Shown here piece after piece: positions 5,415 to 56,433 of a stretch of DNA of 64,000 nt. The position numbers and the translations under genes were made by a program. Origin of the DNA: Vitis vinifera (lineage: Eukaryota > Streptophyta > Magnoliopsida > Vitales > Vitaceae); the NCBI RefSeq assembly GCF_030704535.1, contig NC_081810.1, positions 7,760,501-7,824,500 of the forward strand, written 5' to 3'. The notes under the pieces were generated by a model that ran no database searches, was not told the DNA's origin, and saw only the letters and a program-made list of their open reading frames with translations. Positions within the stretch are counted from its first letter, which is position 1. Each line of letters begins with the position of its first letter.

Positions 5415-7533
5415 GCAAAAAAAATATGATATGGGATAAGCTTTGGAAGATAAAGTTTAGGTTAATTATATTCATTTCCATTGAACATCCAACCAACATA
5501 ATATTATTAGGGCAAGTTTGAGAAAAGAAGAGTACACATCTACGTTAGTATGCAGATACTTCAGATTCTGGATAATTGCATAAGGAATTTTTCAAATTTG
5601 ACTAAGATCAGTAAAGGGGTTTTGAAGGAATGATTCTTAATCTTGTTCATCTGCTCTTGGTAACCTGCAAGGCTTTTTATAATTCTCTGTATGTGTAAAC
5701 CAGCCACCATTCAGGCACAAACACAAGACAAGGCCAAGCCACTGATTAATGGGTTAACATTGTGGCCCAGTCCTCTCTGAAGTCTTATTTAAGGCTTCTT
5801 GCTTCCACGTTCTGCTAGAAGCAAAATTAAACAGGAAAAAAAAATTGTATCACAAGTAATATATTTTCATAACTTTCATATTAACATTTTTCTAAAGTCA
5901 TGAGTTTGTTTAAAGAAAGATAGTCAAATATGAAGTATTATTTACTTTGAAAAGAAATTCTGGCTTTTCCAAAACGAACCTGGCTAATGGATTCTAGCTT
6001 TGTTGTTTAGGTCCAAATTAATATGCTAGAATTGTTAAACTGTTAGTGATTTTATAAAGTGAGCAAATATGCCCGAGTGCCATGCAGTTTTCACCCCTGG
6101 CAAAGCATTATGTGAGTTAATATGAAATTGCAGCACTTCCCAGAACAGATGCATGCCTGTTTATGTTTTTCAGATGACAATTTTACTTGGGCTATGCCAT
6201 GACTGTGCTTTAGTTCATTCCTACTCAAACTTGAAGTGGCTGTTGTAAAATTGCAAGTTTTTTTTCCCCCTAGAATAGTAGAAGTTGCCTTAGCTAGCCT
6301 TTCGGTACGTGGAAATTAAACAGGCTACTTGCTATATGTATTTAGTTCATGCAGTGGAATTGCCAGAGATATGCGCACTACTGAACTCCAGAATTTTTTT
6401 CCTTTTCCCTGTCCTTTTCTTTAAACTTAAAGTACTCGGACTCGAGAACATTTATTTTCTTTAAATTTAAAAACACTACGAAATCACTCTTAGGTTTTTT
6501 TTCTAATTGACATACCCCGCGAAATGTTCATTGCCAAATTACTGAAAATCTGATGCCTAGCAAAAAAGACACAAGATTCATGGTGTGTATATATATGGAT
6601 GAAATTAGATGAACTTCATTTTATATGAGGATGGGTTTAGAGCATCTTCAGGCCTTCAATCACCTGTTTCTTAAACCCAGAAAGCATACTCTTTCAGGGT
6701 TGTGACTCTCACAAAAGAAAAACCCCTTCTTAAAAATACAAAAATGTCAAAAAAAAAAAAAAAAAACCTTTGGAATATGTTGCTTAGAAAAGATTGAGAA
6801 AACACCCTGCACCCATAACATAAATTATGACTTTTGCAACCTTTGTATGGTTCTTAAGCTTTGCAGCGGGATTACTATTGTTTGCAAGCAAGAGTGGAGC
6901 ATACAATTTGGACTATCTTCATATAAAAATCACTCCGATATGTGAGCTTTATAAAAAATATATGTAATCTACAATCAATAGGGATGTGGTCGCATAGTTC
7001 TTAGCATAAGATTACTCCTAAAAATTAATCAAGTTAATAATAACTCTAAAAGCTCCAAATCCATTGGTCACTCCCTCGAGAAAAAAGAAAAGGACAAGAT
7101 GTGTTGTCTGATAGCTAGACTGATATAATAGATGATCAATGGCAGGTACAACCAGGGCACGAACTCACATAGGTCTCAGTATAAGATTGCTCTTAAGGAC
7201 TTAATTAGTTAGTCAGTCACTCTGTATAAAAGAAAAAAAATCAGATATATACTTCGCATTTTCAAGGGTAAATTCAAGCTACATGAGAGAAAGAAAACTA
7301 GGCTAGAAATGTAAGTGAACTGAAATTCTGGACCAAGAAAATGTTTTTGGAAGAACAAAATGAGTTGCATAAATGATATAGAAGTACGGTTTGACATAGC
7401 CTTACATGTCAACACACAACAATATCCTTGTGTCCAAGTACCAACAAGATCTCACTAGAATTCTCTAATTCATAGAGTCAGATCCAGAGTACTTGCCAAC
7501 CTTGGCTTCTTCATTTGTACTATATACCTTCTT

Positions 7534-9039
7534 TCAACCTGCAAACTTTGAGGGCATGTTTAGATCTATAGAATAGATTACTTTCTTTAAAGGAGAAGAC
7601 AAAGAAAGAGATAAATTGTTGTCCAGTACTTCTTCCTCATCCAAAGCCACTTTCCTAGCCTCTTTTCTTGATCTTGTATTCAGTGACAGATTCAGATCAA
7701 TATCACTATCTGGAGCTTTCCTTTTGAGCGAGTTTTGATCTTCCCTATTACTACTCCAGTTCCCATCTAGGGAAATTGAATTGTTAAAGCCTTTATCTTG
7801 CACTCCTCTTCTATGCAATTGTATTGTGCAAGTGGTTTCTGTAGGGATTGATCTGCAGGTTAGCGCACGGATGTGTTCTCGATCATGAAACATCTGAAAT
7901 TCTTCCCGGAATTCATGGGGTCTCTTGCTGTATTGCTCAGTGATCAAAGTGCAATCATTATTCATGTAGAAAACCTCATTCCTTCTGTTTAGACTGGTGC
8001 CGATTCCTTTAGAGATCCTTCCAGCTACTGAATCATGAAAGCCGGCTCCCATAGCAGGCATAGAAGGTCTGGATATCCAGTCCCCATGTCCACCCCACGA
8101 AATGTTGCTATATCTAGAGAGATGCCGTGATGTTAAGACGATAAAATTTATCAACACTTATATAAATCAAAACAAGCACACATAGTTTTATACCTGAAGT
8201 TGAAACCAACCCTTTGGTCAATACTTTCAAATGTGGGAAGTTGCCAAAGGTTGTGAACTGCACTCCCGTTGGGATGCAATTGTCCTCTAGAATTTATAAC
8301 TGTCAAACACACTCATGTTACATTATTAAAATCATCCTAGATGACCAAGGATTAACCTTAACTAATTGCTAAATCTCCTAGAACAACAATTTGAATGCGT
8401 ATACCTTGACCCTTATCATCGATCTTCTTGCTTCGATACATCTGTCACAACAAAGTCCATGGAAAAAATTTTGATCTTAATGATAATTGAAACAGTAAAT
8501 TAAACTGAAAATTCAATTTGCTTCTCATTTCATTTTATGTAATCTTATATTACCTGTAAATGGCTCTTGACATGAGCAATGCTGAGGCCCTTGATGTTCA
8601 TCAGTTGCTGAACTAGCTTAGGAGTTGCTCCTATATCAATTAAAAAAATTGAAATACGGAGATCAAGCCATGTTCTTACAAATAGGAAGCCCCAAAAGCT
8701 TTGGTGGATATATAGTAGAATTTAGTTGCAATGATCATGAAAGAGTGAACAAAATTCATGAAACTTACTTTCTTGACCGCCGAGTCTCTCTACGGCTCGA
8801 ACAAAACAAAGATGAAGATTAGGAGTCCATCGAAGCCTTGGCACCTTTGATCTCACATACTGCCTCACCCCATTGGAGGTTGTCTTCTTTTCACTCTCCT
8901 GATCAACTACGCTGTTGCCTGAGCTGACACTAGTTTTAGTCTTATTTCCATCATCTTCCTGTTCATCATCCTTCCCATCAAAAGGATCAATTGTCTTAGA
9001 ACCGTCATCTTTTCCACTTTCCTCCATGCTTCTTTCCAT
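7534..9039 (-). CDS. GARP / MYB-like (G2-like) transcription factor with EAR motifs
   Basis: Predicted nuclear transcription factor of 356 residues. Exons, in order of translation, are 9039-8769, 8630-8554, 8441-8405, 8299-8194 and 8113-7534; borders are GT-AG and the phases close. The N-terminal 55 residues are acidic and polar. The single MYB-like GARP domain, residues about 60-120, begins VRSKVPRLRWTPNLHLCFV, continues VERLGGQERATPKLV across the first junction, and ends AHVKSHLQMYRSKK, the SHLQ-type third helix of GARP proteins. The C-terminal half is unconserved but holds two Leu-spaced motifs, DLNLSL and NLSLSL, which match the EAR (LxLxL) repression motif; TOPLESS recruitment is therefore an inference. 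The family resembles At1g14600, At2g02060, At2g38300 and At2g40260, of which few are well studied. The ATG at 9039 is the first in frame after an upstream stop. Confidence 0.88.
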
Positions 9040-51659: not shown

Positions 51660-52490
51660 GTTGACACGCAGAACAAGAATTGCGGACTTTTCTCAATAGT
51701 ACAATAATTTTAAAAAGTTATGCTTAAATTATTGTAGTAGAAGAAGTTATTACAAATATATAGTAGTTTTTGCCACATAGAAAAGAGGAGAGAGGGTGAG
51801 AGAGAGGAGAGAGGAGAGAGGGTGAACGGATAAATTTTTTTAAAAAAGGGAACTCGTCTCTTCAAGAGACGAGTTCCATGAAAAAAAATATATATTTTTT
51901 TTAAAGAAAATTCCCCATTTACTCAAGGGAACTCGTCTCTTGAAGAGACGAGTTCCATGAAAAAATATATATATATTTTTAAAAAAATTCTCAAATTTAA
52001 AAAAAAAATAAGACAATTCTTCAAGGAAACTCGTCTCTTCAAGAGACGAGTTCCCATTAAAATATATATATATATTTTTAAAAAATTCACAAATTAAAAA
52101 AAAAAAAAAACAATTTGGAAATAAAGGGAACTCGTCTCTTCAAAAGACAAGTTCCCATGGGAAAAAAAATATATATTTTTTAAAATATATATTTTTATTT
52201 AAAAAAAATCCCAAATTAAATCAATAAATAAATAAAATTTCCTAAAGGGAACTCGTCTCTTCAAGAGATGAGTTCCCATGGGAAATTTTTTTTTTTTTTT
52301 AAATATATTTTTTATTTTAAAAAAATCCCAAATTTTAAAAAAAAAAAAAAAAGGCGAGTTCCATGTAAAAAAAATATATTTTTTTAAAAAATATATATAT
52401 TTAAAAAAAAAAATTTCCTAAAGGGAACTCGTCTCTTCAAGAGACGAGTTCCCATGGGAAAAAAATATATTTTTTTTAAATATATTTTTT

Positions 52491-52530
<40 letters not shown>

Positions 52531-53013
52531 AATTCCAAAGGGAACTCGTCTCTTAATATTTTTTTTTTTTAAATATATATATTAAAAAAAAAAAAAAACA
52601 ATTCCTCAAAATTCCTAAAGGAACTCGTCTCTTCAAGAGACGAATTCCCATGTAAAAAAAAAAAAAATTTTAAAAATATATATATTTAAAAAAAAAAAAT
52701 TTCCTAAAGGGAACTCAAGAGACGAGTTCCCATGGCAAAAAAAAATATTTTTTTTAAAAATATATTTTTTATTTAAAAAAAATCCCAAATAAAAAAAAAT
52801 AATAAAAAAAAAAAAACAATTCCAAAGGTAACTCGTCTCTTCAAGAGACGAGTTCCCATGTAAAAAAAAAAAAAAAATTTAAATATATATATTTAAAAAA
52901 AAAAAAAACAATTCCTCGAAATTCCTAAAGGGAACTCGTCTCTTCAAGAGACGAGTTCCCATGGGAAAAAAAATATTTTTTTTTTAAATATATTTTTTAT
53001 TTTAAAAAAAATC

Positions 53014-53044
<31 letters not shown>

Positions 53045-54075
53045 CAATTCCAAAGGGAACTCGTCTCTTGAGAGACGAGTTCCCATGTAAAAAAAAAATT
53101 TTTTTTTTTAAATATATATTAAAAAAAATAAAAATAAAACAATTCCTCAAAATTCCTAAAGGAACTCGTCTCTTGAAGTGACGAGTTCCCATGTAAAAAA
53201 AAATATTTTTTTTTTAAAAATATATATATTTAAAAAAAAAAAAAAATTCCTAAAGGGAACTCGTCTCTTCAAGAGATGAGTTCCCATGAGGAATTGTTTT
53301 TTTTTTTTTTTTTTTTTTAAATATATATATTTTTTTAAAAAAATTATTTTTTTTACATGGGAACTCGTCTCTTGAAAAGACGAGTTCCCTTTAGGAATTT
53401 TGAGGAATTGTTTTTTTTTTTTTTTTTAATTTGAGATTTTTTTAAATAAAAAATATATTTTAAAAAAATATATTTTTTTTTCCCATGGAACTCGTCTCTT
53501 GAAGAGACGAGTTCCCTTTAGGAATTTTTTTTTTTTTAAATATATATATTTTAAAAAAATATATTTTTTTTTTCCCATGGAACTCGTCTCTTGAAGAGAC
53601 GAGTTCCCTTTAGGAAATTTTTTTTTTTTTTTTAATTTGGGAGTTTTTTTAAATAAAAAATATATTTAAAAAAAAAATTCCCAAAGAGACGAGTTCCCTT
53701 AAGGAAATTTTTTTTTTTTTAATTTAATTTAGGATTTTCCCTGGGAACTCGTCTTTCCCTTGTCTTTTTTCATGGAACTCGTCTCTTGAAGAGACGAGTT
53801 CCCTTGAGTAAATAGGAATTTTTTAAAAAAAATATATATTTTTTTTTCATGGAACTCGTTTCTTCAAGAGACGAGTTCCCTTTTTTAAAAAAATTTATCT
53901 GTTCACCCTCTCTCCTCTCTCCTCTCTCTCACCCTCTCTCCTCTCTCCTATGTGGCAAAAACTATCATATATTTGTAATAACTTCTTCTACTACAATAAT
54001 TTAAGCATAATTTTTTTAAATTACTGTACTATTGAGACAAGAATTACAGTAGAAAGGACCCGCTGAGGTGTCAAC
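51660..54075. mobile_element. Foldback-type element packed with 31-bp palindromes
   Basis: About 2416 bp. The ends are inverted repeats of roughly 190 bp (51660-51847 and 53883-54075). They start gttgacac and share ctcaatagtac, gcttaaattattgtagtag, aagttattacaaatatat, tttttgccacata and a GA-rich run ending ggtgaac. Inside lie about 22 copies (some partial) of a palindrome with 15-base arms GGGAACTCGTCTCTT around one central base, separated by 40-90 bp of almost pure A/T. From the left end to about 53.28 kb each unit is followed by ccATGg; from about 53.35 kb the unit reads the other way (catggg before, tttagg after). The element is thus one large imperfect inverted repeat, left arm about twice the right. 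Flanks aaaattttg and aaaattcaa may be a worn 9-bp target duplication, hinting at Mutator type. No coding capacity. Confidence 0.8.
51848..53882. repeat. Array of about 22 palindromic units
   Basis: Units begin near 51848, 51927, 52026, 52126, 52246, 52421, 52619, 52827, 52931, 53056, 53160, 53255, 53360, 53487, 53579, 53772 and 53850. Partial units are near 52352, 52540, 52710, 53683 and 53740. Most differ from the consensus by zero to three bases. The central base is c in most left units and g in most right units, as expected if the right half is the reverse of the left. Spacers are A/T homopolymer-like and vary in length. Confidence 0.85.
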
Positions 54076-54335: not shown

Positions 54336-56433
54336 ATGGAAAACAGTGGTACTAGCGGTGGCGTTAACGATGCCAAGACAGCCACCACCATAACACTGAA
54401 CATCAAGTTCAGTGGAAGATCCATACCTGTTTCTGTCTCTCCGAACTCTACCGTCAAAGACCTCAAGTCTCTTCTCCAGCCTCTCACCAATGTCCTTACT
54501 CGGGGACAAAAACTCATTTTCAAAGGTCTTTTCCCTCTTTACAAATCACGAAACCCTAGATATTTTCTCAAGAAACAAACACGAGGAAGAAATTGGTTCT
54601 TGATGGTTTCTGTTTGCGCAGGGAGGGTTCTGGCAGATGGCATGACGTTGCGTGAGTCGGAGATCACGGATGGGGCTAAAGTTATGCTGATGGCTTCTCA
54701 GGGCTTGCATCAAGGGGTATCTTCATTGTTTTTTTTTTTTCTTTTTTCTTTTTTATTTCTTTTTCTGTTTCTTGGCATTACGAAATTTGAATAGAATTGA
54801 ATTGGGTGTTTGGTTCCGTAAAATGCAAAGGGAAAGGGGTAAAATGATTGATTCAAGATTCAATTGGAAGATACGGTTTTTGATTTCGATATTAGGGTTA
54901 ATTTTATAGTTTGTTTGAACAGGGCGGTCCAATCTTGAAGGAAGCTCCAACCCGTCCCATTTTGAGGGAAGCAGCGCATGCCAATCCAAAGGGGAATAAG
55001 AGGTCTGAAGTTTTTATTGATAAGGGTCATTTGGATCGGTGGAAGCTTACTGGAGTTATTGCATTGTCTGAATGCCAGTTGAAGGTATAGATAATTGATC
55101 ATAATTATGTCTTTTCTTGCAAATTCTGGCTTTGGTAAATGCATTGCTCGTTTGATCTCTCATATGCTTCATGTTTTCTTGATCTGTTATATATGTTTTA
55201 TGGGTGTGTCAGCTACAAATGACTAGCTGAAGCATTAATGTCTGTACTTTAGATTATAATGCACAAAAATATTTCTAAGAAACAATTTAATTAGATTGGG
55301 TATGTGTAACACTGGTTCTTGTTCATACCTGATCAACTGAGGATGGACTCCTCCTTTGGTTGTGGCAGTGAGAGCCTCTATCCAGATGCCGGAGATTGGG
55401 CCTTCGTCGTCCCTGCACAAAGATGTCCAGACGGGTTGTCTGGACACACTTTCCGAAGCCTAAGTCAGACCCTGAGGTGGGTAGGAACCCTTAGAGAGAG
55501 AGGAAGAATCCTCGGTATTGCGTACCTGTACACTGTTTCATTGGGGTTTTTATTATGCTCAAAAGGAGGAGAGCATAGTAGTGATGAGGTGGCCCTTAAC
55601 TTAATGCCGCAATGATTACTATGCAATAAGTGTCAGGGCAATCATCGTAGTTGTAAGGTGGTTGGTAGCTGTGTCAGGCGGCGCGTCAAGACACAACTTG
55701 CCATCATTTCAATCCTGTTGAGGGTATGGAAATGGAAGTGTCAGTCCACTGATGTAGACGTAAGGGTAAAAAGAGTCCCATCAATCACTCCAGTGTCTGG
55801 TAATTATCGTCTTGCACATCAGAGGGGATTTGGGGACGTCAGGAAAACGTGTCCTGCTCAGTGGCCCCAAATGGTCTGGATAGAATGCTTCTGGGTGCCT
55901 CGAAGGTTGTCCGGTCAGTGATGGAAGGAGTGACACATGGTCCGACTAGGGTTCTACCACGTGGACAGTCTCGTGGAGGCACACGTGGGCAGACACATGG
56001 AAGAAGGTCCCCACAGTTCTGATTATTGATTGGTTATGCAGATTCGACAAGAGCATGCTGTGATTTGAAAATTTTATGAATCATTAATTAGCCTTTAACT
56101 AATATATGTGCCTTCCTCTGTTCTCTTTGCAAAATTTGAGTTTCTTTTCTTGTTGTTTATCATTCTTCCTTCTTGGTGTTGAAATAGTGATAAGAGGCAT
56201 GCCATTAAAATCTTCAAGAAATAAAGTGTGCTGTGTGCTGTTGCTTTCTCCTTAGAAATTTTTTTTTTCTCTTTTTTTTTTTTGCTATTAATGGTGTGGG
56301 TTGGCCCAGGGATCCAGGTGAATGTTCTAGGAATATTTTTCTCTTTTATTTTTATTCATTTGTACTTCTTTTGTTGGTGTCCCAAGCTTTAGTCTCAATG
56401 GGCAGGAGTTGTTTCCACTTTGATGTGTTATAT

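Follow-up and report, generated by a model that had tools for sequence, protein, structure and literature searches.

It has long been asked why foldback transposons have long ends with internal repeats, and a locus in grapevine (Vitis vinifera) raises the question again. The window, a 64,000-nt stretch of DNA on C6 (7,760,501-7,824,500), contains inverted ends enclosing an array of short palindromes. The original prediction described about 22 near-identical 31-bp palindromes with possibly Mutator-like ends. What kind of element this is, how it may move, and what its hairpins are for are considered in turn. Sequence comparison makes it very probable that the locus belongs, as a non-autonomous member, to a family of Mutator-like (MULE) foldback transposons. 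This reading is based on terminal repeats, a target-site duplication, and palindrome arrays held in common with 13.6-14.3-kb relatives that carry genes for a MURA transposase and a plant mobile domain (PMD) protein. The function of the arrays is a more tentative matter.

Structure of the Window Element

The element is 2,354 bp long with a G+C content of 23.4% and contains no genes (Table 1). Its borders had been placed at 51660 and 54075; the outermost 24 bp and 38 bp of that span are single-copy flank, and the true element runs from 51684 to 54037. A 10-bp target-site duplication with one mismatch surrounds it. The inverted arms (51687-51888 and 53840-54041) are 202 nt long and 95% complementary, and their span takes in the first palindrome. 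The described layout of inverted ends around hairpin units is confirmed. The pair GTTGACAC/GTGTCAAC was considered as transposon ends and rejected; both fall beyond the target-site duplication, and the genome offers no match to the joined empty site other than its two own flanks (2 of 2 candidates).

Table 1. Coordinates of the element and its parts in the window
Feature	Position	Strand	Remarks
Whole element, gene-less foldback, very probably Mutator-like	51684..54037	.	Ends set by comparison with L001 and L035-L054
Left target-site duplication copy, CAAGAATTGC	51674..51683	+	Read in the sequence
Right target-site duplication copy, CAAGAATTAC	54038..54047	+	Equal to the left copy at 9/10 positions; flank matches overlap here
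Left terminal inverted repeat, before the first palindrome	51684..51847	+	G/A-rich part at about 51780-51825
Right terminal inverted repeat, past the last palindrome	53881..54037	-	Lacks the final 7 bp of the family terminus
Left array, units pointing right (end in CCCATG)	51848..53285	+	
Right array, units pointing left (begin with CATGG)	53359..53880	-	
Exact copies of the 31-bp palindrome	52423..52453 and 52930-52960	.	Read in the sequence

The array belongs to one repeat family, with 18 units on the plan GGGAACTCGTCTCTT-N-AAGAGACGAGTTCCC between 51848 and 53880, set 77-196 bp apart from start to start. Together with four partial units counted by eye (near 52351, 52540, 53684, and 53743), this agrees with the predicted number of about 22. 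The description as near-identical is true of most units and not of all, as only 12 31-mers of the element pair at 14/15 positions or more with at least 12 G/C. The inner spacers are 83% A/T, half units being left in that count. Array direction switches once, between 53285 and 53359, so the window element folds back both as a whole and unit by unit.

An open frame with a ubiquitin domain (window 54336-54794, plus strand; PF00240, 7.8e-15) starts some 300 bp beyond the element's right end, which places the insertion close upstream of a likely gene.

A Family of Related Insertions

Genome-wide searches covered 495.6 Mb in 21 contigs. The palindrome has 2,063 matches at up to three mismatches and its reversed pattern has 0, which excludes chance. 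Searching with the unit and with the ends, as proposed at the outset, recovered many further copies with the same plan; 11 of 57 exact palindromes lack a listed terminus nearby, among the matches listed. Neither palindrome nor element plan was found in print, as far as open-licence papers go. A plasmid collection gave no match, which is not informative for a plant. The Brassica small RNA bra-miRn20-5p (PMC3936892) has 13 nt, GAACTCGTCTCTT, in common with the palindrome arm, either by chance or through a related repeat in another plant family.

The family termini, GGACTTTTCTCAATAG...CTATTGAGAAAAGTCC, were set from 21 loci: L001, found via the palindrome, and 20 chosen from the best matches to the ends. 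Two ends were found in 18 of these and not in L047, L049, or L052, of which L047 was later completed from sequence further left. An exact 10-bp duplication flanks 12 of the 18 complete copies, one has 10 bp with a single mismatch, three have 9 bp, and two have neither length; the share of 16/18 is not that of the whole family, because the copies were picked for good ends. The 23-base terminus occurs at 146 + 129 places in the genome at up to three mismatches (control, 1 + 1). From the first 100 terminus places listed, 34 elements were paired by eye; 31 are short (889-6,074 bp) and three are long (13,640-14,285 bp), among the matches listed. Several short copies, such as L035 and L041, switch unit direction two or three times, which points to inversions inside the arrays and means that arrays rearrange.

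A variant terminus at 26 places gives further pairs, one of which, on C13, spans 22 kb and encloses a transposase and a PMD gene. Another variant-terminus pair, of 14.3 kb (G000:C10:8375229-8389571), encloses neither gene among the matches listed.

Long Relatives and Their Genes

The three long elements, C9:1138168-1152452 (the element of L047), C7:141028-155117, and C3:196011-209650, have window-family ends and palindrome arrays, and the two copies of the duplication agree at 9, 10, and 9 of 10 positions, respectively. At L047, transposase frames are set among window-family arrays. The order in the long elements is end, array, PMD gene (plus strand), array, MURA gene (minus strand), array, end. 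Orientation marks, summed over the three, are 78 rightward and 4 leftward in the left arrays, 8 and 46 in the middle arrays, and 3 and 25 in the right arrays. The transposase has the Pfam domains PF10551 (2.7e-18), PF03108 (4.2e-11), and SWIM (5.8e-9), and the second gene matches the PMD domain (PF10536) on two exon-like frames (3.6e-55 and 1.7e-23).

A partner transposase of MURA type is thus present in three 13.6-14.3-kb elements with matching ends, and the early guess of Mutator-like ends on a foldback layout is upheld by ends, duplications, and transposase alike. Target-site duplications of Mutator-like elements are about 9-11 bp. The family combines duplications of about this length with terminal inverted repeats and a MURA-type transposase in same-ended members, and its long inverted repeats are built from repeated modules, as in foldback elements. 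The window copy may have arisen from a long element through loss of both genes and joining of the outer arrays, and it would be mobilised in trans by the transposase of its relatives.

The family looks to have moved recently, judging from its transposase sequences (best 53 of 1,195 candidates in the genome search). An open frame of 860 codons occurs twice, in the C7 element and at C9:1847649, at a rounded identity of 100%; the scores are 2080 and 2070, so the two are not identical letter for letter. The transposases at C13:7421098, C9:1146425, and C3:204132 show 98-99% identity and are each interrupted by one stop, and the PMD stretch has the same score in three copies. The C9:1847649 copy adjoins a palindrome array (L062), and on its left a variant terminus follows at a distance of 4.6 kb; the opposite end was not found.

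A PMD match facing the transposase lies within 6 kb in nine of the 11 copies that align over 800 residues or more at 89% identity or higher, among the matches listed; the exceptions, at C13:4292132 and C13:20588535, have no PMD nearby among those matches. In distant copies, PMD is just downstream of MURA on the same strand, among the matches listed (C3:10483088, C10:1574196, C18:31050998, C11:8465206, and C14:18452375, at 68-84% identity). Because this same-strand arrangement recurs in many distant copies, the pairing of MURA with PMD predates the palindrome family. The convergent plan could have come from the same-strand one if PMD was inverted along with the inner part of the array next to it. 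Palindrome arms are absent from 4,001 and 1,301 bases upstream of two related transposases, so arrays are not needed by every MULE of the lineage. The best 150 of 791 candidate MULE matches all lie on C1-C19, a distribution that suggests 19 nuclear chromosomes. The exons of a grape dihydroflavonol reductase, a protein equal to PDB 2c29 from Vitis vinifera over 337 of 337 residues, match a single place on C18 in six pieces at 91-97% identity, values depressed by overhang where exons end; the host is accordingly grape-like.

A MULE family with an 829-aa protein and several equal-scoring copies was also considered as a partner. It was rejected for the one copy examined, L055 (G000:C7:16882600-16891000), whose 8.4 kb have no match to the window-family end at E below 0.01. 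L055 holds a different MULE, with the 829-aa frame open, beside palindromic DNA (2379-2948 and 6898-7638). One part is a 741-bp stretch with a 90% match to its own reverse complement, and the other is an array whose self-complementary repeats measure about 74 bp each. This is a second grape MULE near palindromic DNA.

Mutation Pattern of the Palindromes

The 321 palindromes in 23 loci were reduced to 297 by dropping 24 with 5-8 mismatches. Arm positions are changed on one arm only in 140 cases and on both arms in two, compared with about 2.5 expected under independence (a hand sum from the per-position table). The suggestion that repair keeps the arms matched is therefore not supported. Recent amplification of the unit, proposed beside it, fits.

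Of the 144 changes at the 14 inner positions of the arms, 110 are C-to-T or G-to-A. At A/T sites, 7 of 4,158 palindrome cells are off consensus compared with 53 of 3,379 cells in the ends, or 33 without one subfamily column; the end cells come from 44 terminal repeats of 22 elements. G/C sites are alike (137/4,158 in palindromes, 42/1,358 in ends). In 41 copy-pair alignments, A/T differences number 18 in 4,661 palindrome cells, 114 in 6,931 end cells, and 1,803 in 38,337 spacer cells. Non-deamination substitutions thus look rarer in palindromes than in ends, and deamination-type changes look alike. The pattern fits either constraint or rapid unit turnover with dense methylation. Selection on the unit is possible; it is not claimed, because the copy pairs are not independent, the copy sets overlap but differ, and the units were found by similarity.

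Comparison With Known Elements

The kind of element is already known, namely a Mutator-like foldback transposon with gene-less derivatives. Judged against named families by their descriptions, what sets this variant apart is the near-perfect 31-bp palindrome as array unit, the array between convergent transposase and PMD genes, and the mostly 10-bp duplications.

FARE of Arabidopsis makes 9-bp target-site duplications, compared with 10 bp in 13/18 and 9 bp in 3/18 of the grape copies. As reportedly set out by Windsor and Waddell in 2000, it has a short, all-repeat form, FARE1, beside FARE2, a long form that carries several genes and can reach about 17 kb. In description, this division matches the short and long grape elements. 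We know of no report of a perfect 31-bp palindrome as a FARE array unit. Published accounts of FARE describe features that the grape family also has, namely a foldback layout, a long palindromic repeat at each end, and a transposase of MULE type (PMC3169594; PMC4486113).

The named Mutator-like families of grape, Mutavine-1 to -18, include transposase copies and many deleted copies (PMC2528002). Mutavine-2 has ends of 180 bp, near the 164 or 195 bp of the palindrome family's ends. However, its published length is 11 kb rather than 13.6-14.3 kb, and Mutavine duplications are given as always 9 nt, unlike the mostly 10-bp duplications of the palindrome family. The terms 'palindrom', 'foldback', and 'hairpin' have 0 occurrences in the main text of that description (Benjak et al., 2008; PMC2528002).

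VANDAL elements offer a functional parallel. VANC21 binds short motifs in the noncoding tandem repeats of VANDAL21 and removes methylation, and these arrays of a short motif in noncoding MULE parts grow and shrink, according to two papers (PMC5735166; PMC10398659). The VANC21 motif has 9 bases, and the word palindrome is not used in the first paper (PMC5735166), whereas the grape unit is a 31-bp palindrome. VANDAL termini are degenerate, while the grape ends are long and well preserved, differing within an element at 0-7 of about 100 bases, and the second gene of the long grape elements is PMD where VANDAL has VANC.

Foldback-like ends with internal repeats also occur in Galileo of Drosophila, whose THAP transposase domain is described as binding many sites inside the repeated ends (PMC3688188); Galileo, however, is of the P superfamily. 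Tm1 of root-knot nematodes combines such ends with a MULE-domain transposase, but its repeated motif, as described, is about 14 bp. The SIRC cassettes of Arabidopsis, some of which lie within MuDR elements, consist of short direct repeats separated by spacers that vary, and their reported palindrome arms are 3-9 bp compared with 15 bp in grape (PMC10342631). PMD itself was first described with a rice MULE, and its capture by MULEs is suggested to serve anti-silencing (PMC5418596). The same account reports PMD-transposase fusions in grasses and Amborella (PMC5418596), whereas in grape PMD is a separate frame, convergent with MURA, with an array between.

What the Arrays May Do

The palindromes would be central to noncoding arrays, which would lengthen and shorten through duplication of the unit plus its spacer. 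By analogy with the systems above, the arrays are tentatively read as candidate repeated binding sites for an element-encoded protein, the transposase or the PMD protein, and a palindrome suits binding as a dimer. Bound to the array, such a protein might build a transposition complex or keep copies from silencing. A landing platform for an element protein is favoured, with passive amplification as a close rival. Under the latter, which is itself quite plausible though short of even odds, the transposon is the same and the arrays are functionless, a hairpin-prone unit in A/T-rich surroundings multiplying by slippage, template switching, or unequal exchange. The wide variation in unit number and in length among the paired short elements, the lack of correction between arms, the many truncated and half units, and the related copies that seem array-free in the stretches read all agree with this. 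The low share of off-consensus A/T sites in palindromes, with G/C sites alike, runs against it; that argument is weak, because the copy sets coincide only in part and similarity served to find the units.

It is improbable that the palindromes of this same transposon act as RNA, yielding small RNAs from hairpins or ends for the transcripts of the convergent genes. Every unit is a 15-bp hairpin, the convergent genes have an array separating their 3' ends, and the bias of arm changes is what methylation would give; yet Rfam has no match at the gathering score, and the literature match, one 13-nt stretch in the Brassica small RNA, is one that chance can give. That the assembler collapsed or invented the array is scarcely credible. 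Sequencing has difficulty with long homopolymer runs and with hairpins, and single bases in runs may be wrong, but the plan is seen again in separate insertions, of which 16 of 18 have a 9-10-bp duplication of their own.

Implications

Returning to the favoured landing platform, a narrower form of it, rather unlikely as it stands, would have the arrays serve the family's own PMD protein or a PMD-transposase pair, as an independently evolved counterpart of VANC anti-silencing. The PMD gene of the long elements carries a domain whose relatives MAIL1 and MAIN are described as acting in silencing in Arabidopsis (PMC5418596). If the narrower form holds, a captured, silencing-related host domain would be paired with a palindromic address tag on every member, gene-less copies included. 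Gene-less copies, long relatives with open frames, and seemingly array-free transposases share one genome, so binding, silencing, and movement can be compared among them. With transposase-carrying relatives in the grape genome, what hairpin arrays are for becomes testable.
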